A stretch of DNA of 64,000 bases from assembly GCF_014131735.1 (NCBI RefSeq), contig NZ_CP039121.1, positions 2,418,001 through 2,482,000 on the forward strand, written 5' to 3'. The notes beneath the pieces were generated by a model that ran no database searches, was not told the origin of the DNA, and worked only from the letters and a program-made list of their open reading frames with translations. This document shows positions 21,290 to 52,806 of this stretch, one piece after another (position 1 is the first letter of the stretch; each line of letters begins with the position of its first letter). Source of the stretch: Lactiplantibacillus plantarum (lineage in GTDB: Bacteria; Bacillota; Bacilli; Lactobacillales; Lactobacillaceae). The translations under genes and the position numbers were made by a program.

Positions 21290-21429
21290 CTATTATGCAG
21301 CCAGCTGACATTGACAGATACAATTAGCTCCCAATAATTAAATTATCATTTATTAGACTAACGGCAATGACAATGTTACCCTTAAATTGTCAACGACATT
21401 ATATAAGTATTTTGAAGGAGTGGGGATCT

Positions 21430-24400
21430 TTGAAACCAAACAATGTTAATAATCAGAATAAACGTCACCAATCGCGATGGGTAATCACGAGCGCAACCGC
21501 CATGATACTGACAACGTTAACGATTGCCAGTCAGGCGGCGGCTGCCGACGATACAGTCACGACCACAACCAACGAACCGACCAACAGTCAGTTGAATACG
21601 AATACTCAAGTTAACGCTACTCAGGTCAATTTGAAAGCGGATACTTCTACATCAGTATCCACGATAAAATCCGACCAGTCAGCAGTCGCAGCCACGTCAC
21701 CCACCACATCAACCGGAAGTCCCTCTGAGCACTCGTCGTCAGTGAACACCAACCCACAACAACAATCAGCAAATCCAGCATCACAATCTCAAGCAACTAC
21801 CACGTCAGAATCAACACCGACCACAGATATTAAGCACCCAACTCAAACCGCACCAGCTCAAACAACCTCCGCATCAACTACTGAACCAACTACCGAATCA
21901 AACACTGAATCAGCGACTGATAGTCAAGCTAAAGCAACGACAACCGATAATCAAGCTTCCAAGCAACCAAGCCAGCAAGCCGCACCTGCGCCGTCCAACT
22001 CCACTACCACCGAGGTGAATACTCAGTCAGCGACTAGCTCAGCGTCAACCGATGATAAAATTGTTACCAATGTAAACCAGGAAAAGCTAGTTTTGAAAAC
22101 TAACCAACCAGTCGTCCGTGCCATTAGCCGCACCGCGTCAGAAAATATTAACGATTGGATGCCAAACACATTATTGCAACAAGAGGTACTCAGTCAACTG
22201 CGCAAACAGAACCCAGATCGTACCTGGAACTCAGCTGCAGACATCACTAAGGCAGATATGCTACTACTGACCACCTACTATGGCAAGGACACTTATATCG
22301 ACGGCAAGACTTCCTACTCATTAGAAGGACTGCAATATGCCACTAACCTTACGACAGTCTGGCTCAACAACAACTTGAACGCACCGTCTGGCAGTTACTA
22401 TAGTGATGTCACTGATATTTCACCATTAGCCAACTTACAAAAACTCCAAGTGGTCAATATTCAGCAAAACCGGATCACGGACATTTCACCGCTCGCAAAC
22501 TTAAAGAATTTAACGGAGGTCGATGCCGCCTATAACCACATTTCAGATTTTTCGCCACTTAAAGGATTTAAAAATCTGAAAGGCACATTCAGTAACCAAT
22601 TTATCACCTTACCACCCGCCTATATTAGTGCAGATAATAATATTGCGACGCTGGCGATTGATTGCTATTTGCCAGATGGCTCTAAAGTTCAACTGAAGCC
22701 CAATAATGGCGTCGGTGAAACTGTTTTCTACAAAAACGGTCAGCTTTACGTTCGCTGGTACTTTAACGGTGCGGGCGGTGGTAATTACGACAGCAACGGT
22801 CATATCTACTACACGAATATGAAGCCCCAGCAACCCGGACTAACAGGTCCGACCTTTAACGGTACCACGGTTATTCCCATGGACGATTATTATTTCATGA
22901 CTGCCGCTTCTGACGGTAACAACTTTGTCGTCGTCCGCCCGTATGTCTTAGCTGCCACTGCTGCGCCCATCACGGTCAAATACGTCGACGCGCTTACCGG
23001 TGAATCCTTAGTCACCGCTGACCTCACCTTAAACGGAATCGTCGGTCAGCCTTACACGACTCAGCGCATTGATGACGAGCTACCAAATTATGACTTTACG
23101 AACATTGTCGGCAATGCCAGTGGTGTCTTCACAGCGGATGCCCAGACCGTCACTTATTACTATACTCGTAAGGACGCCGGCGACATTACGATTCACATGG
23201 TCGATGCTAACGGCAACTTAGTCTACGAACCGCAAATTCTACCTGGAAAACACAATCTCGGTAACGCCTACAATTTAGATGCGCCAACCTTTGACCATTT
23301 TAAATTACAGCAAACTATCGGCAATGCGGCTGGCGTTTTCACGACTGATCCGCAAAGCATCACGTTTGTCTATGTCCGCTTAGACGCCGGTAACATTACG
23401 GTGAAATATCAAGATAAGCAGGGAAAACAATTAAAGCCCGATAAGACAATTTCCGGCTCCCAATCACTCGGCCAAGCCTATACGACTGAACCGTTGGATA
23501 TTGAAAATTACACCCTGACGACAACGCCGACAAACGCCACGGGCACTTTCACAGACCAGGAACAGACGGTCATTTACGTCTATGTGCGCCGCGATGCTGG
23601 CCAGATCGTTGTTAAGTATCAAGATAGTGCTGGTAACCCACTAGCACCCGACAAGCTTTTAGACGGTAAAGAACAGCTAGGAGCAGCCTATCAAACGGAA
23701 GCCATTTCAATTCCTAACTTTTACCTAGTCGCCACACCTGCGAACGCCACCGGGACCTTTTCAACCGACGCGCAAACCGTTATTTACCAGTATACGCGCT
23801 CGAATGCTGGCCATATCACGGTGAAGTATCAAGACGCTAACGGCACGACCTTAGCTCCCGACGACGTCCTAACTGGTGACGGTCAGCTCGGTCGCCCCTA
23901 TCAGACTAGCGCCAAGACGATTGAAAACTACCGCTTAATTCAAACGCCGGCGAACGCTACTGGGCAATTCAGCGACCAAGCGCAAACCGTCATCTACGTC
24001 TACACTCGCGAGGATGCGGGTGACATCACGGTTCAGTATTTAGACGAAAACGGCCAGCAGTTAGCCGCCGATAGCGTATTAAGCGGTCAAGGTCAATTAG
24101 GACGGCCCTATGAAACGTCACCGCTGAACATTAACGGCTATACGGTAAAATCGACACAGGGTAACACGACTGGGACCTATACTGTACAGCCGCAACGCGT
24201 CGTTTACATTTACGATCGGACAGCTGGACAGCCGGTCACTGCCAAGTATCAGGACCAAGATGGTAAGTCTATCCATCCTGACGTTGTTCACAGCGGGTAT
24301 TTGGGTGACAACTACTCGACCGAACAACTTGTTATCGACGGCTACACCTTTAAAGCCGTTCAGGGTGACGTCAGTGGGACGTTCGGGACTTCTGCTAAGA

Positions 24401-25212
24401 CTGTGACCTACGTCTATGAACGGACGGCTGGGCTACCCGTCACTGCCAAGTATCTGGATGAGCATGGTAAGTCTATCCATCCTGACGTTGTTCACAGCGG
24501 GTATTTAGGTGACAGCTACTCGACTGAACAGCTGGTTATCGATGGTTACACCTTCAAGGCTGTGCAGGGTGACGTCAGTGGGACGTTCGGAACTACCGCG
24601 AAGACTGTGACCTATGTTTACACTGTAAACACCCCCACAATTCCAGATACCCAAGGAACCGTTACGGTGCATTACATGACCAAGGACGGCATTAAACTAA
24701 ACGAACCAACCGTGCTGAGCGGCAAGACGGGAACCACTTATCAAACCGTGCCCCTGACGTTCACTGATCATGAACTCGTTGGTCAGCCGGAAAATGCCAT
24801 GGGTCTCTTCACTGCTGATAACGTAGACGTCACGTACGTCTACCAAGCAACTGACACGACTGGTACCGACGATATTATTGATCCCGAAGAACCGGAACAA
24901 CCGACTAAGCCGATTAAGCCTGTTGAGCCAACCACACCCGAGACGCCTAACGAACCAGGAACGACCGTAACGCAGCCGGATCGCATTAAGCCGACTCAAC
25001 CAGCGGTAGCTGTAAAACCAGCAGCGACCGTGAAACCAACGCTTAAACCCGCGGCCGCCCAGGCAAGTTTGGTCAAAACAACGAGTCCCGTCACTGAACA
25101 CTCAGCCCAGTTACCACAAACCAACGAACAGACTGGCAAATTAGCGGTCATCCTAGGACTGTTATTATCCATCGTCACGTTCGGGTTCTATGGTAAACAT
25201 CGGCAATCATAA
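21430..25212 (+). CDS. LPxTG-anchored MucBP-repeat adhesin
   Basis: A 1260-residue surface protein, probably a mucus adhesin. The start is TTG 21430 (AAGGAG at 21415-21420). An N-terminal signal region (WVITSATAMILTTLTIASQAAAA) is followed by a Ser/Thr/Gln-rich stalk (about residues 40-235), a leucine-rich-repeat segment (NLQKLQVVNIQQNRITDISPL and neighbours), nine MucBP repeats (about 22,970-24,870), a Pro-rich wall segment (EPEQPTKPIKP), and LPQTN with a hydrophobic helix and KHRQS tail for sortase anchoring. Repeats 7 and 8 are nearly identical at DNA level with a 204-base period. A strong terminator follows. Confidence 0.92.
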   Translation: MKPNNVNNQNKRHQSRWVITSATAMILTTLTIASQAAAADDTVTTTTNEPTNSQLNTNTQVNATQVNLKADTSTSVSTIKSDQSAVAATSPTTSTGSPSEHSSSVNTNPQQQSANPASQSQATTTSESTPTTDIKHPTQTAPAQTTSASTTEPTTESNTESATDSQAKATTTDNQASKQPSQQAAPAPSNSTTTEVNTQSATSSASTDDKIVTNVNQEKLVLKTNQPVVRAISRTASENINDWMPNTLLQQEVLSQLRKQNPDRTWNSAADITKADMLLLTTYYGKDTYIDGKTSYSLEGLQYATNLTTVWLNNNLNAPSGSYYSDVTDISPLANLQKLQVVNIQQNRITDISPLANLKNLTEVDAAYNHISDFSPLKGFKNLKGTFSNQFITLPPAYISADNNIATLAIDCYLPDGSKVQLKPNNGVGETVFYKNGQLYVRWYFNGAGGGNYDSNGHIYYTNMKPQQPGLTGPTFNGTTVIPMDDYYFMTAASDGNNFVVVRPYVLAATAAPITVKYVDALTGESLVTADLTLNGIVGQPYTTQRIDDELPNYDFTNIVGNASGVFTADAQTVTYYYTRKDAGDITIHMVDANGNLVYEPQILPGKHNLGNAYNLDAPTFDHFKLQQTIGNAAGVFTTDPQSITFVYVRLDAGNITVKYQDKQGKQLKPDKTISGSQSLGQAYTTEPLDIENYTLTTTPTNATGTFTDQEQTVIYVYVRRDAGQIVVKYQDSAGNPLAPDKLLDGKEQLGAAYQTEAISIPNFYLVATPANATGTFSTDAQTVIYQYTRSNAGHITVKYQDANGTTLAPDDVLTGDGQLGRPYQTSAKTIENYRLIQTPANATGQFSDQAQTVIYVYTREDAGDITVQYLDENGQQLAADSVLSGQGQLGRPYETSPLNINGYTVKSTQGNTTGTYTVQPQRVVYIYDRTAGQPVTAKYQDQDGKSIHPDVVHSGYLGDNYSTEQLVIDGYTFKAVQGDVSGTFGTSAKTVTYVYERTAGLPVTAKYLDEHGKSIHPDVVHSGYLGDSYSTEQLVIDGYTFKAVQGDVSGTFGTTAKTVTYVYTVNTPTIPDTQGTVTVHYMTKDGIKLNEPTVLSGKTGTTYQTVPLTFTDHELVGQPENAMGLFTADNVDVTYVYQATDTTGTDDIIDPEEPEQPTKPIKPVEPTTPETPNEPGTTVTQPDRIKPTQPAVAVKPAATVKPTLKPAAAQASLVKTTSPVTEHSAQLPQTNEQTGKLAVILGLLLSIVTFGFYGKHRQS
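24238..24645 (+). repeat. Near-identical tandem pair of MucBP repeats
   Basis: Two successive units of 204 bases (68 codons) beginning at the GTCACTGCCAAGTATC segment; the GGTAAGTCTATCCATCCTGAC segment occurs at 24262 and again at 24466. They differ in few bases, whereas the other seven MucBP units of the gene are much more diverged, so this looks like a recent duplication. Confidence 0.85.
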
Positions 25213-25326: not shown

Positions 25327-25857
25327 ATGAAAGTCTATCTCATTCGTCACTCCGAACCAACTTATCAACAGGTCACTACAGCTGGATTAACTGGTTTCGG
25401 CCGTGAACTCGGCGGCTTAACCGACCGTGGTATTATGCTGGCACAACAATGCGCCCAGCAGCCGTTATTTGCACAAGTCCAATTAATTCTGTCGTCCCCC
25501 TACACACGCGCCTTACAAACGGCACTGGAAATTGTGCGTTTTAATGATATCCCACTAAAGGTCGAACTTGGATTACACGAGTGGCTACCCGATAACACGG
25601 GTAGTCGGACTGATACCGATGAACAAGCGACCACGGCCTACAAGCTCTATCGACAACACGCCGGCAAGCGCACCACCGCTAGTCCCCTCCCCTACGAATC
25701 AGCAGCTGAAATGAAGGCCCGAGTTTTGGCAACTTTGAATAAGTATGCCGCATCTTACGATTGCATCGCCTGCGTCACGCACGGCGAGGTCATGCAGCAG
25801 TTTGGCGATCAGAAAGACGTGGATTATTGTGGTGTGCGTGTTATTGCGGTTAATTGA
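25327..25857 (+). CDS. Histidine phosphatase family protein
   Basis: A 176-residue phosphohydrolase of the phosphoglycerate-mutase-like superfamily. MKVYLIRHSEPTY carries the RH catalytic motif with the phosphorylated His at 8; GGLTDRG follows at about residues 29-35, SSPYTRALQTALEI near 57-70 and VTHGEVMQ supplies the second active-site His. The RHSEPTY variant (rather than RHGxT) is common in small phosphatases. AAGGAAG lies upstream of ATG 25327. The substrate is not predictable. It stands between the adhesin and a 363-base region with no clear gene. Confidence 0.85.
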   Translation: MKVYLIRHSEPTYQQVTTAGLTGFGRELGGLTDRGIMLAQQCAQQPLFAQVQLILSSPYTRALQTALEIVRFNDIPLKVELGLHEWLPDNTGSRTDTDEQATTAYKLYRQHAGKRTTASPLPYESAAEMKARVLATLNKYAASYDCIACVTHGEVMQQFGDQKDVDYCGVRVIAVN

Positions 25858-26220
25858 CAATTCATAAGCAGTCGCCAAACAATGGTCGCCTATAATGAAC
25901 TATCAACCACTGTCAATCTAATAATAATCAGGCTTAAAAACTGCGAAACAAGTGCCGACATTCGCTACCACGCCATACAGTCTTTGGCAAGTACTAGTAT
26001 ATCGCCTATATCACTCATAATGAAGTCATATGTCAATTTAATGGCTGAACACAACTTAAATACTGTGAAGTAGAAACGATTAATCATTTGACATGTTTAC
26101 CCTGGCCTCACAATAATAATATTCATTTAATAATTATCATAAACATCTAGCAACTACCGTCTCAATACAACTTAACTTTTGGCACTTAATAAATTAAATT
26201 GTAAGTTAGCCTCTTCATTA
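25858..26220. other. Intergenic region of 363 bases, no clear gene
   Basis: AT-rich. An open frame of 63 codons at 25882 has no ribosome binding site and looks random. An imperfect hairpin (TACAATTTAA/TTAAGTTGTA in reverse-strand reading, near 26166-26205) might end the MazG transcript, but lacks a T run. The region marks the edge of the AT-rich 26.2-28.3 kb module. Confidence 0.35.
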
Positions 26221-26538
26221 CTATTGTGTTTTCCTCTCCGTATCCCAATGTCTTGATTGATTGATTTTCATTTTTTGAGCAACAATCTCAAATGGATCAA
26301 CCTGTAGCTTTTCACACATATAAAATATATAAATTAACGTGTCAGCTAATTCTTCTTGCAAATGTTGATTTTCTCTATTATCCAACTTCTGATTAGCATT
26401 ATGCCACTGAAAAATTTCCAAAACTTCACTAGACTCAATGTTTAGAGAAATTGCCAAATCCTTCAAGTTATGATACTTCTGCCAGCCTTTTTTATTACGG
26501 AATTCGATTAATGCTTGTTCTATCTCCGAATAATTCAA
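26221..26538 (-). CDS. MazG-like nucleotide pyrophosphohydrolase
   Basis: A 105-residue all-alpha NTP pyrophosphatase of the MazG/RS21-C6 type. Metal-ligand acidic residues are visible: ESSEVLEIFQW (about 35-45) and EELADTLIYIFYMCEKL (about 62-78), which give the ExxE...ExxD pattern. GWQKYHNLKDLAISL precedes them, as in this family. It starts 5 bases after the stop of the GIY-YIG/helicase gene, so the two form one operon. Such enzymes hydrolyse (d)NTPs to NMPs; in a nuclease-helicase context depletion of nucleotides during phage growth is possible, as an inference only. Confidence 0.85.
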   Translation of the reverse strand: MNYSEIEQALIEFRNKKGWQKYHNLKDLAISLNIESSEVLEIFQWHNANQKLDNRENQHLQEELADTLIYIFYMCEKLQVDPFEIVAQKMKINQSRHWDTERKTQ

Positions 26539-26543
26539 TTAAA

Positions 26544-28334
26544 TCACCTCAAAATATGTTGATTTCCAGCTGCCCTTAGTAAGGCCTGTTGTAGTTCCTC
26601 ATCGACAGCAAAAATATATAACCCATGGACACCACGAGTTAATAAAACATTTAGTTCGTTACGTAACAATTCTTCGGAAACGTCAATTTTTTGATGTTTC
26701 CATGTTCGTTGATTCGTGGCTTTTTTATTCTTACTAGCTTGTTTATCAAAAATTAACTTTCCGTCTCGATACTTCACTGATGGGCCGATAATCACACCAG
26801 CATAATTCAAATCAAAACCTTGGATTGTAAATGTTGAGCCGACCTCATTAATTGTTTGAAACTGTTCGGCCCAAGCTAGCCCTTTGTTTCTTCGCTTTTC
26901 TTGGCGAGAAATAGGAATCTGCAAATTCCATGGCAAACTCCACGTCCCAATCTTTACTCGCCAACAGTCACCATCTTTTGGTTTTCGTTTCTCAACATAT
27001 GGCCAATCAAACGTTGCCAACATTCTGGCAAGACTAGCACCGTTACTATTTTTCAATCGATCTAGTGCCTTGATTTTAGCGTGTAGTTTTTCCGGAGATG
27101 TCGCGATTTTAAGTTGATATTGTGCATCATCTGGAATTACATTAATGCGCCCATCAATTGCAAAATTTCGTAACCAGTCAATAGTACGCTGCTCGGCAAT
27201 CATTCGTTCCTGATGTGTTAGCTCAATTCGATTGCCTTCACGTTCAGCATCATCTTCCAATTTTCGAACAGCCATGTCGTCCAAGTATCCCTCGGTAGTT
27301 AGTATTTGATACTTATCAAACACAATAACTACCACTTTGGCTAACTTTAATAAATCCTCTAGCTGATTATGTCCCCGATATGCCATCTTTCCCTGAGTCA
27401 GGAGTAAATGAGCTTCATCAACTAGTACAACATCAACTTTTGCCGCACCAGTATGTTTCTGAATAAAATGAGTAGGTTTGGAGACGATGTCTTTATGTTC
27501 GTGATCCAAACCTAATTTATGTGCAATCGTTTTATAAACTGTTTTTTGTTGATCGTGATTAACTAATAAATATACTGAATCTTTCCGCACTAAACTACTA
27601 TTCGTTAAGTCGTAAAACAAATTACTCAACAACACGGTTTTACCAGTTCCTGCCTGACCGGCAATAAAGATTGTCTTACCGCGTTCCGTAGATGATTCCT
27701 TCAGTGCAGACTCGATTTTACCAAAAATCTCATTCTTACTTTCATGCTGTTCAGCATTTAAAGAGTGGAAAGGTGACGCTTTGAACACAGCAGAATTTTC
27801 AATTTCTGATTTTTCCGGAAAAATCTCAGGCTTTTTTTTCCTAAGCGTTTGCCAGACTCCTTCAAACACATTCTCAAACTGATCCGACATAAAGTATTTT
27901 CGCTGCGGATTTGAGCGTCGATTATTCAATTGAGTAACACTCTCCGCACTTAATAAATACATCATCAATTTATTTTCAATGTCGAGCGTTAGGGATTTGT
28001 TAAAATAATAGTCCCCAATTACAATCATCTGTGAATTATGACTCTCATTTAATGCTTTCCAATCCATCCGTGACTTTCCAGTATCTTTTAAATGCTGTCG
28101 TGTTCTTCTACTTATGTCGTTAGTTTCTCCAACATAAACTTTGAACTTAGGGTCATTACTACTGCGGCCAGAACCTAATTTATCATAAATTAAATAGACT
28201 GTCGGATATTCAAATATCAGCTCTCTATTCTGCATATCTCTATGTAGGCTAACATTATAACCAGTATTATATGGAACAATTTCTACAACCGGCTCAATGT
28301 CGCCAATGTTTTCTTCAATTTTGTTGTATCGCAT
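26544..28334 (-). CDS. GIY-YIG nuclease fused to Schlafen-type (DUF2075) helicase domain
   Basis: A 596-residue fusion. The N-terminal GIY-YIG nuclease spans about residues 40-145: VYLIYD (46-51), KVYVGET (65-71), RRTRQHL (76-82), the catalytic Glu in ENKLM (about 120) and the final LNNRRSN. The helicase domain (PF09848, earlier DUF2075, now named after Schlafen group 3) follows: Walker A IAGQAGTGKTVLL (224-236), Walker B VVLVDEAHLLL (302-312), and late DNVLLTRG-like motif LNVLLTRGVHGLYIF. A reverse-strand TATAAT near 28372 may be its promoter. Paired with MazG; a defence role is inferred. Base composition is more AT-rich than neighbours. Confidence 0.85.
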   Translation of the reverse strand: MRYNKIEENIGDIEPVVEIVPYNTGYNVSLHRDMQNRELIFEYPTVYLIYDKLGSGRSSNDPKFKVYVGETNDISRRTRQHLKDTGKSRMDWKALNESHNSQMIVIGDYYFNKSLTLDIENKLMMYLLSAESVTQLNNRRSNPQRKYFMSDQFENVFEGVWQTLRKKKPEIFPEKSEIENSAVFKASPFHSLNAEQHESKNEIFGKIESALKESSTERGKTIFIAGQAGTGKTVLLSNLFYDLTNSSLVRKDSVYLLVNHDQQKTVYKTIAHKLGLDHEHKDIVSKPTHFIQKHTGAAKVDVVLVDEAHLLLTQGKMAYRGHNQLEDLLKLAKVVVIVFDKYQILTTEGYLDDMAVRKLEDDAEREGNRIELTHQERMIAEQRTIDWLRNFAIDGRINVIPDDAQYQLKIATSPEKLHAKIKALDRLKNSNGASLARMLATFDWPYVEKRKPKDGDCWRVKIGTWSLPWNLQIPISRQEKRRNKGLAWAEQFQTINEVGSTFTIQGFDLNYAGVIIGPSVKYRDGKLIFDKQASKNKKATNQRTWKHQKIDVSEELLRNELNVLLTRGVHGLYIFAVDEELQQALLRAAGNQHILR

Positions 28335-28414
28335 ATCTTCATCCTCGTGTTAAAAAATCTATCTGGCTTTATTATACATGAAAGATCAAGGGACAAAAGA
28401 GCTTACCGCACAAA

Positions 28415-28460
28415 CTAAAAAGGTAGCCCGCGCTGAAACGTCCAGCACCGAACTACCTTT
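28415..28460 (-). terminator. Terminator of pepN
   Basis: AAAGGTAG/CTACCTTT arms with GC-rich interior; the reverse strand reads CTACCTTTTTAG after the stem. It lies just past the stop of pepN. Confidence 0.8.
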
Positions 28461-28475
28461 ATAACGAATATTAAC

Positions 28476-31010
28476 TTATTTTACAACTTCCGCGACCGCC
28501 GCATTCACCGCATCACGTTCATCTTCAACTAAGGCAACGCGACTGGCGATTACCTTAGTATCCATCTTAATTTCACGCGTTAAACCGGGCGTATTGATTT
28601 TTGGTTCAAAGAACGCCTTGAATTCTGCTAAACGTTCAGCCGTATGGAAGACCCGGGAAATGACGGTGATGTAAGTGGTAAATTCCATGTCACCACCAAC
28701 CGTGGCTTCCAACCATGACCATTCGTCGCGAATCCAATCCCAAGCTGCTTGTTCACCAGCTGGATTAGCCAAGACGCCGCGGAACCAGGCCCGCAAGTCT
28801 TGTGGCTTAATCGTATCAGCATCTTCAAACTTCACAACTAACTGTTTGATTAATTCGGGGTCCGTAGTTGCGGTCAATGCGTCACAAATGTCAGCCTTGT
28901 AACTAGCATCGGCTGTTTGCCGTGACGCCGTCAATAAACTATCGAATAAGTCCTTGCTACCAAAGTTCTTGACTTCATTCCGTAAAATGAAGACCCGCAC
29001 ATCGGCTGGTAAGGTCGCTAACTTATCACGATTACCTTCGAATAACTCATGGGCAGCTAATACGGCCGCGCTATTCTTGGCGTACAAAGCCGCGCTCAAG
29101 ACGTATGGCCGCGTCAACTGATCATCGTTAGATTCACCAGCTTGTGGCAACCACCCTAACCGTTTAACCTGAGCGGCACTCAATTGGTCAAATAACGTTT
29201 GTAAATGCTTTTCTTCATCAGAATCTGGCGTAACAAACTTACGTAAGTTACCCGCAACTTGGTACAACGCTGCGTTAACGACCGTTGAATGGCTGGCTGC
29301 AAACCGGCTTAATAATGGCACAACGGCTGCGTATGAGATTTGACGACCTTCAGCTAATAAGCGTAAGTCTTGTAACAACTGTAACTGGTCAATGGCCGTT
29401 AAGTCATCAACGTGCGCTAGAATATCATCCAATAACGTTTGGTCATACTTGACGATGAAGTGGGAGTTATTCCCAACGTTCAAGCGAAATGGTTGCCCAC
29501 TCGCATCACGTAATTTAGCATAATCGCCGACCGTCACAGCTTGGTCCTTCATAATCGCTGGTGCCGCCTCATAGTTGCTATTCAACGGAATCTGCCATTG
29601 ACGACCGACTTCTTCACCTTCACCGATGAAGAACTGTTGTTGTGACAAGGTCAACTGACCGTCAACAACCGCTGCCGTGACCACTGGATAGCCAGGTTGT
29701 TCCAGCCATGAATGCATGATGTCTCCAACTTGCATCCCAGAAGCATCCGCTAAGGCGTTCCACAAGTCATCACCCTTGGCATTACCATATTTATGATTGA
29801 TAAAGTACTGCTTCAAGCCTGCTCGTAAGGCATCATCACCAACTAAGGCCCGCGCCATTACTAACATCCGCGCACCCTTAGCGTAGACAATCGCACCGTC
29901 AAAAATCGAGTCGATTTCGGCCGGATCTTCCACCTGAACGTGGACTGACTGAACCCCATCCGTGGCATCCCGTTGAAGCGCCATTGATGCTTCGGACGTT
30001 TGGAAAGTTTCCCAAATATGCCAGTCTGGTTCTAAGGCGTCCGTCGCCACATATTCCATCATGTTGGCGAAACTTTCATTTAACCAGAGGTCATCCCACC
30101 ACTTCATCGTAACCAAATCACCGAACCATTGATGGGCAAGTTCATGGGCAATCACCGTGGCGACCCGTTGTTTCGTTTCGAGGGCCGTGTTGTCAGGATC
30201 TAATAGTAAGTAGGCTTCCCGATAAGTAACTAAGCCCCAGTTTTCCATCGCACCAGCTGAGAAGTCTGGTAAGGCCAATTGCCATGAGTGTGGCAATGGA
30301 TATGGCGTCTGATAAAAATCTTCATAAAATTCGATTGAGCGCTTGGCAATGTCCAAAGCAAAGTCGAGCTCGTTAGCCTTGTGGGCCTTAGTACCGAAAA
30401 CACCGATGGTCACGCCACTCTTGGTCTTCGTCTGCTTGCCTTGTAATTCACCAAAGGCAAACGCAATCAAGTAAGTCGACATCCGCACCGTGGTTTCAAA
30501 GTAATGCACTCCATCGGCTTCATGATCTTCGGGCATGTTGCTTAAGATCGTTTCACCATCATGTTCATCGTACTTGATGGCAAGATCAAAAGTCGCTTTA
30601 GCTTCTGGTTCATCGACACACGGAAAGGCTTGCCGGGCCGCGGTCGTTTCAAACTGCGTCCCGATTAGTTCTTTCTTCACACCGTTGACTTCGTAATATG
30701 ATGGGTAGATACCCATCATCGTATCCGTCAATTTGGCACTGTACGTAATCGTCAAAGTTGTTTGACCGGCCTTGGCAAGTTCAATTCGAATTCCTTGAAT
30801 CGCATTATCCACAGTAAAGGGCACGTCCGCACCATCGGCTTGGACACCAGCAATGGTCAAACCATTCTGATGAATCAGCACTTCCTGCGCCTTAGCATCC
30901 CCGGTAATCGTTGATTTCCCCGAAATCAGCTTATCCGCCCGGTTAATATTGATATAAAGATCGTAATGTTCTGGTTGAAATGTTTCGTAAAAATGAGTTG
31001 TGGTTGCCAT
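28476..31010 (-). CDS. pepN: Aminopeptidase N (M1 family zinc peptidase)
   Basis: The main intracellular aminopeptidase of lactic acid bacteria, 844 residues. GAMEN (253-257) recognises the free N-terminus, HELAHQWFG holds the zinc ligands His289 and His293 with the catalytic Glu290, and Glu312 in NESFAN is the third ligand. The C-terminal half is the alpha-helical ERAP1-like domain. ATG 31010 follows GAGGAG; the 11 codons upstream in frame are discounted. It feeds amino acids from peptides into metabolism. Terminator at 28415. Confidence 0.97.
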   Translation of the reverse strand: MATTTHFYETFQPEHYDLYININRADKLISGKSTITGDAKAQEVLIHQNGLTIAGVQADGADVPFTVDNAIQGIRIELAKAGQTTLTITYSAKLTDTMMGIYPSYYEVNGVKKELIGTQFETTAARQAFPCVDEPEAKATFDLAIKYDEHDGETILSNMPEDHEADGVHYFETTVRMSTYLIAFAFGELQGKQTKTKSGVTIGVFGTKAHKANELDFALDIAKRSIEFYEDFYQTPYPLPHSWQLALPDFSAGAMENWGLVTYREAYLLLDPDNTALETKQRVATVIAHELAHQWFGDLVTMKWWDDLWLNESFANMMEYVATDALEPDWHIWETFQTSEASMALQRDATDGVQSVHVQVEDPAEIDSIFDGAIVYAKGARMLVMARALVGDDALRAGLKQYFINHKYGNAKGDDLWNALADASGMQVGDIMHSWLEQPGYPVVTAAVVDGQLTLSQQQFFIGEGEEVGRQWQIPLNSNYEAAPAIMKDQAVTVGDYAKLRDASGQPFRLNVGNNSHFIVKYDQTLLDDILAHVDDLTAIDQLQLLQDLRLLAEGRQISYAAVVPLLSRFAASHSTVVNAALYQVAGNLRKFVTPDSDEEKHLQTLFDQLSAAQVKRLGWLPQAGESNDDQLTRPYVLSAALYAKNSAAVLAAHELFEGNRDKLATLPADVRVFILRNEVKNFGSKDLFDSLLTASRQTADASYKADICDALTATTDPELIKQLVVKFEDADTIKPQDLRAWFRGVLANPAGEQAAWDWIRDEWSWLEATVGGDMEFTTYITVISRVFHTAERLAEFKAFFEPKINTPGLTREIKMDTKVIASRVALVEDERDAVNAAVAEVVK

Positions 31011-31127
31011 ATTATTCTCCTCGTTTTTTAAGAATATATTCATTATACGACAATTACGGGTGGAATGCGTCCTCTGCCGCCCATGAATTTGTCACGCGAC
31101 TAGCAACTAATTCTCGACAACCCCCAT

Positions 31128-50332: not shown

Positions 50333-50851
50333 CTATTCAAAATCTTTTGCGTCACCAATGATTATATTTTTTCGTCGGCAACGACGTAATGTTATTGGTC
50401 CAGCAATCGGTGCCAAAAGACCTGCAATCAAAATGCCACCAATCAGTGTGACAATAATTTTTCCAATAACAGCCCAGAAGCCACCAAAGTACCACATGCC
50501 ATTTAAAATGCGTCCTATCAAACTTTCACGATACCAGTACAAACTAAATGGATAGAAATAAGCACTTATTGCCGTCAGAACAATATGCAATACACTCATC
50601 GTTACTCCTAATAAGCTAACAGTAACTCCAATTCCTGATTGCATACCTGGATAAAAGATGGCCAGTAGAATCATACCATAAATGGTCCACACAACTGGTA
50701 TTACTAGTAATAAGTGAGCTAACTTTCGCTTCCAATAATCGGGATGTAAATAATTATATGCGTCTAATTTATGGCTAAGTTTTTTCCTAGATACCGTAGG
50801 CTTTATCTTTACTGGCTTGGGCGGCCGAACATACTGTTTCTTTTCTGTCAT
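50333..50851 (-). CDS. Membrane protein cotranscribed with the beta-helix-AAA+ ATPase
   Basis: A 172-residue protein: a basic N-terminus (KKQYVRPPKPVKIKPTVSRKKLSHKLDAY), a first membrane segment (LLLVIPVVWTIYGMILLAIFY), and three others (VTVSLLGVTMSVLHIVLTAIS, FGGFWAVIGKIIVTLIGGILIA, LLAPIAGPITL). No family is recognised. GAGGAG supports ATG 50851, and it follows the ATPase gene by 23 bases, so the two are an operon. It might anchor the ATPase at the membrane. Confidence 0.65.
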   Translation of the reverse strand: MTEKKQYVRPPKPVKIKPTVSRKKLSHKLDAYNYLHPDYWKRKLAHLLLVIPVVWTIYGMILLAIFYPGMQSGIGVTVSLLGVTMSVLHIVLTAISAYFYPFSLYWYRESLIGRILNGMWYFGGFWAVIGKIIVTLIGGILIAGLLAPIAGPITLRRCRRKNIIIGDAKDFE

Positions 50852-50874
50852 TCTTCACTACTCCTCTGTTGTCA

Positions 50875-52806
50875 CTATAACATTGCAGCATCAATATCCT
50901 GCTGCTTAATTGCAGAAAGGTCTTCTCCTTGCTGGCCGGCGACACGAACAGCAAATTTCCTGATTAACCTTTCATTAAGATTACGAACCCAGCGGCCATT
51001 ACTATGATCGTGAGAAACATTAAAATTATGCATAACTAAGTCCGTGTATGCAGTTTTATCCACAATATAATTTTTAGCCTTTAAGTCATTCCAGCCAATT
51101 TCAATTAATTCCTGGGGTGTATAATCTTCAAACATAAAGTGATTAGGAATCCGGCTTCGCAGTCCCTCATTCATTTTTAAGAACTTTTCCATACGATCGG
51201 TATACCCAGCGAAAATAACAACAACATCCGCACGATGATCCTCTATGAATTTTAAAATCTCATCGATGGCTTCCCGTCCAAAGTCTTTCTCATCCCCGTT
51301 AGCTAGCGTATATGCCTCATCAATAAATAGGACTCCGCCAAGAGCAGACTCTAGAACTTTACGAGTTTTTATCGCAGTTTCGCCAATATAACGTCCTACA
51401 ATGTCCGAACGTGAAACCTCGACAAATTTCTGATCGTTAATGATTCCTTTGTCAAATAAAATTTCACCTAAAATACGTGCAACGGTTGTTTTTCCTGTCC
51501 CCGGATTACCTAGGAATAGTGAATGTAGTGTCATGGCATCACTACTTATCCCTTGCTCCTTACGCTGCTTATTCATTTGGGCTATAGCAATAAATTCATT
51601 AATCTCCGATTTAACTCCACTAATCCCTATCATTTCATTGAGACGATCCAACGCAGGCTTTTTACCAAAATAACTCACTTGACCCTGCTTGTCCGCGGAA
51701 ATGTAATGATTTGTTTGATCCACCACAAACGTCCCATTGTTTAAATTATATTGGTAGTAATCTAATGCTGTCTTACCGATATCTACATTCCGTTCAAGTT
51801 TCAAATTTGGATTTGAGATTTGTCCAAAAATAATATGGCAGACCTGAATATTAGAGCGGCCCGCAATATACAAATTTACTTTGCCGTTGTCACGCCCTAG
51901 AATAAAAAAGCGATTTCCAGTGACTTGTGTTCCATTTTCGATTGCAAAGCTTTCCCGAATCAGTGTTTCGTTAATATTAGCCGTGGTGTGATCTAAACTA
52001 ACTGAATCCACTTGACCACCTTTAAGTGTCATTTGACTGTTTAACACCAATAGAGCCATGTCAAACTTGGGCTGATTAATAGAACAATCTTGACAGGTTA
52101 ATTTGGAATCACATATATGAACGCATGGATACACTTCTTTAGACAGAATTTTTCCACCCGTTAAAGTTGACGATATTAATTGGATAGTACTTTGTTCATT
52201 TCCGTTAAGCACACAACCGTCCGTGTATTCTAGTTGACTTTTATGACATAAAAATTGAGCATGCTTCAAATACACCTTTGCACAAATCCATGAATTACGA
52301 ATAGTCAGCTCAGAATTCTCGACGTAAATACGATGCTTTCCATCTGAAATTTTGCTAGCTCCGACTGTTACATTCTTTAATTGTACATGTGAATTTCCAC
52401 TAATATACACAATTGGATAGTTTGTTCCAGTCGTTGATTTGTTAATTAAGTAAACATCTTCAGCAATTACAGTTGAACCCATACGCACAGTAATTGCATT
52501 ACTCTTATCAGTATTTTTCTGAATACAAATATTTTGCAACGTTACTGTAGCTCCATCCTTCACTACAATACCATCGATTGTATTGGTATAGATATGTTCA
52601 TTCTCTCTATTTTCAACGTGACCCTGAATTGTAATACTTTTAGTAATAACTATAGATTGGTTATTTTGACCGTTGAACGGATCAAATCCCGCCTCAATCT
52701 CAATGACATCTCCATCACTGGACGCTTCAATTGCCTGATCAAAATCCCACGTTGACCGCCGACCAAACAGATTTTTCTTATCAGGACCCACTAGATAATT
52801 ACTCAT
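50875..52806 (-). CDS. AAA+ ATPase with N-terminal right-handed beta-helix domain
   Basis: A 643-residue protein. Residues 20-360 are repeated short beta strands (VIEIEAGFDPF, ITIQGHV, GIVVKDGATVTLQNICIQ, VYISGNSHVQLKNVTVG, IYVENSELTIRNSWI), the pattern of a right-handed beta-helix. Residues 385-640 are an AAA+ domain of the CbxX/CfxQ-EccA-SpoVK kind: Walker A GNPGTGKTT (433-441), Walker B VLFIDEAY (492-499), Arg finger in GLRSRIPNHF (547-556). GAGGAGGGG precedes ATG 52806. The N-terminal repeats may bind a protein or polysaccharide partner. No secretion genes are adjacent, so its substrate is unknown. Confidence 0.85.
   Translation of the reverse strand: MSNYLVGPDKKNLFGRRSTWDFDQAIEASSDGDVIEIEAGFDPFNGQNNQSIVITKSITIQGHVENRENEHIYTNTIDGIVVKDGATVTLQNICIQKNTDKSNAITVRMGSTVIAEDVYLINKSTTGTNYPIVYISGNSHVQLKNVTVGASKISDGKHRIYVENSELTIRNSWICAKVYLKHAQFLCHKSQLEYTDGCVLNGNEQSTIQLISSTLTGGKILSKEVYPCVHICDSKLTCQDCSINQPKFDMALLVLNSQMTLKGGQVDSVSLDHTTANINETLIRESFAIENGTQVTGNRFFILGRDNGKVNLYIAGRSNIQVCHIIFGQISNPNLKLERNVDIGKTALDYYQYNLNNGTFVVDQTNHYISADKQGQVSYFGKKPALDRLNEMIGISGVKSEINEFIAIAQMNKQRKEQGISSDAMTLHSLFLGNPGTGKTTVARILGEILFDKGIINDQKFVEVSRSDIVGRYIGETAIKTRKVLESALGGVLFIDEAYTLANGDEKDFGREAIDEILKFIEDHRADVVVIFAGYTDRMEKFLKMNEGLRSRIPNHFMFEDYTPQELIEIGWNDLKAKNYIVDKTAYTDLVMHNFNVSHDHSNGRWVRNLNERLIRKFAVRVAGQQGEDLSAIKQQDIDAAML

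Follow-up and report, generated by a model that had tools for sequence, protein, structure and literature searches.

A GIY-YIG nuclease/Schlafen-type helicase fusion with a frequently adjoining MazG-like pyrophosphatase: a candidate defence module in Lactiplantibacillus plantarum

The stretch of DNA analyzed here, 64,000 nucleotides of the Lactiplantibacillus plantarum genome (contig NZ_CP039121.1, positions 2,418,001 to 2,482,000; hereafter, the window), encodes a protein in which a GIY-YIG nuclease domain is joined to a superfamily 1 (SF1) helicase of Schlafen group 3, and, directly after it, a small MazG-like pyrophosphatase. With moderate confidence we favour the view that the two genes constitute a mobile module acting against phages or other invaders, in which the fusion would attack DNA and MazG, as an accessory, would hydrolyse ribo- or deoxyribonucleoside triphosphates ((d)NTPs). 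A defensive role in the wide sense, comprising direct attack, abortive infection or action against other mobile DNA, appears likely. The source genome (G000) is of 3.25 Mb, and the nearest named homologues belong to Lactiplantibacillus.

Domains and conserved residues of the two proteins

A preliminary description of the window, made from the sequence alone, had assigned a GIY-YIG core and a Schlafen-type helicase to one protein; the open reading frame (ORF) lies where it had been placed, and both assignments are borne out by the Pfam profiles PF01541 and PF09848 and by conserved residues (Table 1). The PF01541 (GIY-YIG) profile matched the full-length fusion with 24.3 bits (cut-off 22.6), the GIY-YIG domain taken alone with 26.1 bits, and all 36 family members scanned at E 0.01 or better, and PF09848 (Schlafen group 3) matched the helicase half with 293 bits. 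In the alignment of 133 fusion rows (114 distinct sequences; rows shorter than 500 aa were excluded), 17 key nuclease and helicase positions were identical in 131–133 rows, with Y47, Y67, R77, H81 and E120 kept in all of them. As judged from the sequences, such conservation of the key positions excludes a chance domain match. The fusion belongs to the GIY-YIG superfamily by profile and by its Tyr/Tyr/Arg/Glu set, which we take to be catalytic, and to the PF09848 family by profile, by the Walker A (GQAGTGKT) and Walker B motifs and by the SF1 fold; R567 was assigned to what is presumably helicase motif VI.

In structure comparison the AlphaFold model of the fusion (mean predicted local distance difference test score 82) had UvrD as its top match and displayed a helicase fold in common with human SLFN11, the comparison extending mainly over residues 149–596, with the N-terminal half barely covered. 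The only solved-structure profile match of the GIY-YIG half was a weak one to I-TevI (1mk0, E 0.33). The likeness to SLFN11 proposed in the preliminary description thus holds for the helicase fold and does not extend to the N-terminus, where no Schlafen core nuclease/ribonuclease (RNase) domain was found by Pfam at E 0.001 and GIY-YIG is present instead; judged by this N-terminal core nuclease domain, the fusion is not an animal-type Schlafen protein. Nor did Pfam recognise in it a sequence-specific DNA-binding domain separate from GIY-YIG.

The MazG-like protein (PF12643, 42.9 bits) begins 5 bases after the fusion, exactly as had been noted: the fusion stop codon TGA occupies positions 26546–26544 and the MazG start codon TTG lies at 26538. 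Its best solved relative is 4qgp, named ‘pyrophosphatase’ (E 7.8e-22), followed by dCTP pyrophosphatase 1 (DCTPP1, 3.1e-11). Residues E35, E38, E63 and D66 were kept in all 67 MazG proteins compared, and the protein belongs to the MazG family by profile and by the ExxE...ExxD motif, which we assume to be the acidic site of MazG. Because a ribosome-binding-like sequence overlaps the stop codon of the fusion and the genes are spaced by 5 bases only, translational coupling of the fusion and mazG is suggested. A consensus scan revealed no promoter 5' of the fusion, nor did its sites clearly outnumber those in shuffled sequence (13 versus a mean of 10.6). The AT-rich composition to which the preliminary description drew attention is real, as GC content amounts to 37.6% in the fusion gene and 32.1% in the MazG gene versus 47.4% in pepN and 44.4% in the window.

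Table 1. Coordinates of the features discussed, in positions of the window unless a locus is named
Feature	Position	Strand	Details	Basis
GIY-YIG nuclease/Schlafen-group-3 SF1 helicase fusion	26544..28334	-	596 aa, ATG start	ORF, Pfam, conservation
GIY-YIG domain core	27999..28202	-	residues 45-112; Y47, Y67, G69, R77, H81 invariant; E120 invariant, just outside	Pfam, conservation
SF1 helicase domain	26601..27677	-	residues 220-578; Walker A 226-233; DEAH 306-309	Pfam
MazG-like all-alpha NTP pyrophosphatase	26221..26538	-	105 aa, TTG start; acidic E35, E38, E63, D66	PF12643, 4qgp and DCTPP1 matches
GAGGTGA, ribosome-binding-like site of mazG	26544..26550	-	overlaps fusion stop codon	read by eye
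Insert of ~2.43 kb holding both genes, versus sister species G011	26040..28469	.	between pepN end and phosphoglycerate-mutase-like (PGM) gene region	blastn of sister flanks
Degraded remnant of second PGM-like gene	25855..26039	-	G011 carries the gene next to the first	68% DNA identity
PGM-like gene	25327-25857
Adhesin-like gene	21367-25212
pepN	28476-31043		orthologues in L188-L228
NA37-type (nucleoid-associated) genes	L228:14522-15508, L217:2097-3086, L220:981-1967, L227:299-1315			one Pfam-tested, others by eye

Association of MazG with the fusion

A contig scan of named genomes yielded 334 relatives of the fusion. At the best 80 of these 334 loci, MazG was found beside the fusion in 66 cases, at no more than about 71 bp from the fusion match (44 downstream, 21 upstream on the same strand and 1 upstream and divergent). 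Since this set comprises the most similar loci, a less biased sample of 57 loci was taken, consisting of the fusion-length matches listed in 201 Lactobacillaceae genomes (an even sample) and of two more from the phylum sample; there, a MazG ORF adjoined the fusion at 33 of the 57 loci (16 upstream, 12 downstream, 5 divergent). In this count L045, with a tblastn match to MazG and no called MazG ORF, was scored as lacking it, and some other loci so scored lie close to a contig edge (e.g., L259). The two sets share members: of 54 family rows, 19 or more are present in the named one as well. No MazG match was detected at the 52 control loci, i.e., at 21 loci of a 400-aa paralogue and in 31 random 10-kb stretches (34 were drawn, and 3 omitted, two as overlapping another and one as lying 5 kb from another). 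Adjacency to MazG, the count of which had been proposed as a check, is therefore far above background and not rare.

The paralogue mentioned is a Schlafen-group-3 helicase without GIY-YIG (G000:C1:2921563-2922735), to which the match of the fusion begins behind the GIY-YIG part. It was dropped as a part of the system, being present in all 21 genomes of the genus with MazG within 1.5 kb in none.

The two-gene module of the preliminary description accordingly stands as a frequent association and not as a fixed unit; a fixed two-gene system is rejected, because MazG was not found beside many fusions (14 of 80 and 24 of 57 loci). At least 12 changes of the MazG state (downstream, upstream, none) are needed on the 80-row fusion tree, and the 24 MazG-less loci of the less biased sample shared no common replacement partner, the largest neighbour clusters comprising 3 loci. 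The association of MazG with the fusion is real and rearranged, and MazG is dispensable. Considering the many fusions with no MazG found beside them, the fusion looks like the core of the module, and MazG like an accessory. On the same tree the locus of Sedimentibacter sp. SX930 (L084) nests inside Trichococcus, with end branches of 0.02–0.03, which is either a recent transfer or a mislabelled contig.

Distribution and genomic context

The fusion occurs in 9 of 21 Lactiplantibacillus genomes, in 8 of these 9 together with MazG, and in at least 55 of 201 Lactobacillaceae genomes (one with a broken gene; G198, where the match starts from residue 114, was not counted). Among 398 genomes of the phylum searched at 1e-70, matches were obtained only in G505 and G610 besides G000. 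The named loci (best 80 of 334) include those of Staphylococcus, Enterococcus, Carnobacterium, Streptococcus, Lachnospiraceae and Corynebacterium. The nearest cluster comprises 189 member sequences. Matches were also found in 32 plasmid records, 10 of them covering at least 80% of the query. With such patchiness in the genus and the family and with the copies on plasmids, an even spread through core genomes, which was to speak against the module, is ruled out. Phages as the main carrier of the fusion were rejected in view of few and weak matches: one weak partial match in IMG/VR and 4 of 50,697 phage records, all below 60% identity, with one covering at least 80% of the query.

Defence genes adjoin the fusion at several loci and on plasmids. 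PADLOC search at 1e-15 was performed with 379 ORFs located within 5 kb of 49 loci, hand-picked from the 80 to spread over genera (31 were omitted). It matched 116, 69 and 85 families in batches of 128, 128 and 123 ORFs. For comparison, 30 random stretches (control stretch L166 with one 2973-aa ORF was excluded) supplied 279 ORFs, which were searched as batches of 145 and 134 and matched 24 and 7 families. The excess gives the direction and not the size of the effect, because redundant models swell the counts, as do UvrD-type helicases (called GajB or RTasHel) that probably serve housekeeping. Among the families listed for the fusion loci (25 per batch) were Cas1, Cas3, Cas5, GajA, restriction enzymes of types II and IV, DrmB, AbiEi/AbiEii, PD-T4-3 and HEC-06. 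The expectation that known defence genes would turn up among the neighbours was thus confirmed by Cas, restriction and CRISPR genes.

The gene neighbours were read in 7 of the 32 plasmid records and in 1 of the 4 phage records (unannotated). A plasmid of L. plantarum carries, in one direction, a Nudix-type pyrophosphohydrolase, a DEAD helicase, a MazG-type pyrophosphohydrolase, the fusion, two hypothetical proteins and DUF2357; its helicase of the Nudix/DUF3427 kind is 60% identical. On a plasmid of L. fermentum (L230:3995-8994) the fusion stands directly before two genes of a type III-A CRISPR system, Cas6 and Cas10. In L. salivarius the plasmid order is HsdS, HsdM, a small ORF, the fusion and MazG, in L. 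amylolyticus it is DUF262, a restriction endonuclease and the fusion, and in Fructilactobacillus sanfranciscensis a DNA adenine methylase lies ~3.5 kb from the fusion. The fusion is adjoined by a DUF3578 protein on a Paenibacillus plasmid and by a DUF3883 protein on a Streptomyces plasmid, both being names associated with restriction-type loci. In 4 of the 9 Lactiplantibacillus genomes with the fusion, an NA37-type gene lies ~0.05–3.1 kb away from it. Linked as it is to defence genes and to mobile DNA, the pair has the genomic context expected of an anti-phage defence system.

Neighbour clustering at the best 80 of 334 loci recovered MazG at 60 loci, spread over 25 genus labels, and besides it a DUF3427/PLD helicase at 7 loci (7 genus labels, median distance 561 bp) and a Nudix protein at 6 loci (5 genus labels, median 372 bp); the Nudix and PLD/DUF3427 domains were Pfam-tested for one pair. 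Nudix directly before the PLD/DUF3427 helicase is itself a recurrent pair (L063:12141-15477, L212:6290-9617, L229:1357-4654), which sometimes joins MazG and the fusion. The DUF3427 helicase is present in 57 of 201 Lactobacillaceae genomes independently of the fusion, and lies close to it on the same contig in 2 of the 20 family genomes carrying both. As an obligate third gene it was rejected, given 7 of 80 loci and no significant co-occurrence, which corresponds rather to docking of the island type.

The preliminary description had put the module next to an adhesin gene; the adhesin-like gene is in fact next but one, with the PGM-like gene in between. In the sister species G011 and G013, whose pepN is 99% and 95% identical, respectively, a short gap after pepN is followed by a PGM-like gene, and the pair is missing; in comparison with G013, similarity resumes at about 25846 by blastn of the flanks. 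The DNA that follows pepN was inspected in 21 species-level Lactiplantibacillus genomes, and defence features up to 1.3 kb from it were counted. Such features were found in 8 of 21 genomes (G000 with its own module included; a figure with no baseline count from other housekeeping genes): a diverged fusion (54% identical) and then an NA37-family gene in G007, the fusion, MazG and then Nudix with the DUF3427 helicase in G015, Cas9 starting 199 bp past the pepN match in G016, type I restriction genes in G008, Nudix with the DUF3427 helicase in G020, and CRISPR arrays with a 61-nt period in G018 and G019. A PGM-like gene directly follows pepN in 3 of 21 genomes (G011, G012, G013), and in the other 10 no defence gene was recognised in the flank, with the contig ending at pepN in G006 and ~1 kb beyond it in G005. 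The pepN downstream flank in Lactiplantibacillus turns over defence genes. The fusion is located on the same contig as pepN, within ~28 kb, in 7 of the 9 fusion-bearing genomes of the genus.

Elsewhere in the window (50333-52806), an AT-rich stretch at 45–53 kb encodes an AAA protein of 643 aa, a relative of CbbX and EccA1, with an adjoining 172-aa ORF lacking a Pfam match.

Proposed function, alternatives and comparison with known systems

For the favoured reading, i.e., a mobile module against phages and other invaders, the genomic context supports defence, and we infer anti-phage activity, DNA as the target, the substrate of MazG and the cooperation of the two proteins. SLFN11 binds single-stranded and not double-stranded DNA (PMC9482658), and the helicase half is likened to it in this respect. 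It would load on DNA that is single-stranded or forked and use ATP to position the GIY-YIG half, which would then cut invading or replicating DNA. MazG, where present, may hydrolyse (d)NTPs, most likely of the dCTP type and perhaps modified, and so either starve the invader of precursors or remove the modified nucleotides that shield it from cutting. Being optional, MazG should raise the potency or widen the range of the module and not be essential to it.

Several observations weigh against this reading. The window copy has no recognised defence gene adjoining it, only pepN and the PGM-like gene, and 13 of 21 pepN flanks carry no recognised defence features, again with no baseline from other housekeeping genes. 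The MazG profile had no match beside the fusion at 14 of the best 80 loci. In the less biased sample, 24 of the 57 fusions had no recognised MazG neighbour, so that nucleotide depletion cannot be essential. At the genome level, co-occurrence of DUF3427 with the fusion did not exceed chance (20 genomes, odds ratio 1.7, p 0.16). Apart from the inflation of the PADLOC counts described above, the families listed come with no locus of origin, and the random stretches, too, matched MTase_II, SspH, PD-Lambda-5_B, Cas12f-type, Csx1 and PDC-S models.

Abortive infection, in which the helicase would sense phage replication intermediates, the GIY-YIG half would cut host and phage nucleic acids indiscriminately and MazG would drain dNTPs, so that the cell stops or dies, seems to us an unlikely account, as no toxin–antitoxin-like immunity partner was recognised in the pair and MazG is often absent beside the fusion. 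MazG enzymes, besides, are normally house-cleaning and not toxic. In favour of this account, nuclease, helicase and MazG have all kept their catalytic residues, and the SLFN11-like helicase half would suit a sensor of single-stranded DNA or stalled forks (PMC9482658).

Participation in DNA repair or in the response to replication stress, and not in defence, would have the helicase-nuclease act on damaged forks, with MazG disposing of oxidised or modified dNTPs. The top structural match to UvrD agrees with it, as do the many fusions located among genes without an evident defence link, and both MazG and DCTPP1 are house-cleaning enzymes. Yet the patchy distribution (9 of 21 genomes in the genus), the plasmid copies adjoining CRISPR and restriction genes and the use of the same insertion site by Cas9 and restriction systems make this explanation rather improbable. 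A selfish element, in which a homing-type GIY-YIG nuclease promotes its own spread with MazG as a passenger, is very improbable: GIY-YIG homing nucleases are a classic class and the unit is a compact insert, but its surroundings differ between genera by neighbour clustering, the helicase motifs are conserved, and IMG/VR gave one weak partial match (introns, inteins and target sites were not systematically searched).

The claim that the pair corresponds to no named system agreed with the sources searched. PADLOC 2.0.0 had only partial matches to the fusion, with no full-length model, and none to MazG at E 1; the best NCBIfam 20 match of the fusion reached 26.4 bits against a cut-off of 324.5, and MazG had none at 0.001. 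The protein family as such is known, database homologues being already labelled ‘DUF2075 domain-containing protein’, and the system is unnamed in these sources. In open-licence literature no description of a fusion–MazG system was found, by which ‘unpublished’ is not proven; the parts of the DUF2075 literature consulted held no defence role, and fusion-related terms were not found in the main texts of surveys of McrBC and YprA-family systems (PMC11090510, PMC12458937). In the DefensePredictor report, MazG is among the predicted defence domains, not experimentally validated, and GIY-YIG, DUF2075 and Schlafen are not mentioned in its main text (PMC13092281).

If confirmed, the module would represent an unnamed antiviral system of lactic acid bacteria, enterococci, carnobacteria and staphylococci, would offer an experimental handle on MazG, a component which that same source predicts without validation (PMC13092281), and would provide a bacterial Schlafen-helicase antiviral system for comparison with human SLFN11. 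In human Schlafen proteins of group III (SLFN11, SLFN14) the nuclease half is the Schlafen core RNase, whereas here it is GIY-YIG, in a bacterial protein often accompanied by MazG. The fusion has the conserved GIY-YIG residues in common with the endonucleases I-TevI and Odn of phage ICP1, the latter being a phage-borne anti-parasite nuclease (PMC8263062), but differs from both in being joined to a helicase; apart from GIY-YIG, Pfam recognises no domain in it for sequence-specific DNA binding. With MazG and DCTPP1 (RS21-C6) the pyrophosphatase shares the sequence match and the four acidic residues, and unlike them it stands in an operon with a nuclease-helicase. Nhi and AbiO are helicase-bearing single-protein defence systems; their PADLOC models match the helicase region weakly (1.5e-11 and 2.5e-10, within residues 191–363), with less than one third of the models covered and the GIY-YIG region outside.

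The closest in logic is the Nudix and DUF3427 pair (mREase_IV in the PADLOC matches), likewise a helicase-nuclease beside a small NTP pyrophosphatase, which on the L. plantarum plasmid belongs to the same gene run as MazG and the fusion; its nuclease (PLD) and pyrophosphatase (Nudix) are unrelated to those described here, as seen in the one pair tested. This common pattern suggests a general principle of cutting DNA and cleaning the nucleotide pool. Tentatively, and with more doubt than confidence, one may think of an unnamed defence class that pairs a helicase-nuclease with a small nucleotide pyrophosphatase and exists in at least two independent versions that could dock into one gene run, MazG with the GIY-YIG/Schlafen helicase and Nudix with the PLD/DUF3427 helicase: the pyrophosphatase would remove the (modified) dNTPs which the phage needs to rebuild or mask its DNA as the nuclease cuts it, and the fusion would show bacteria employing a Schlafen-type helicase, joined to another kind of nuclease, against viruses.

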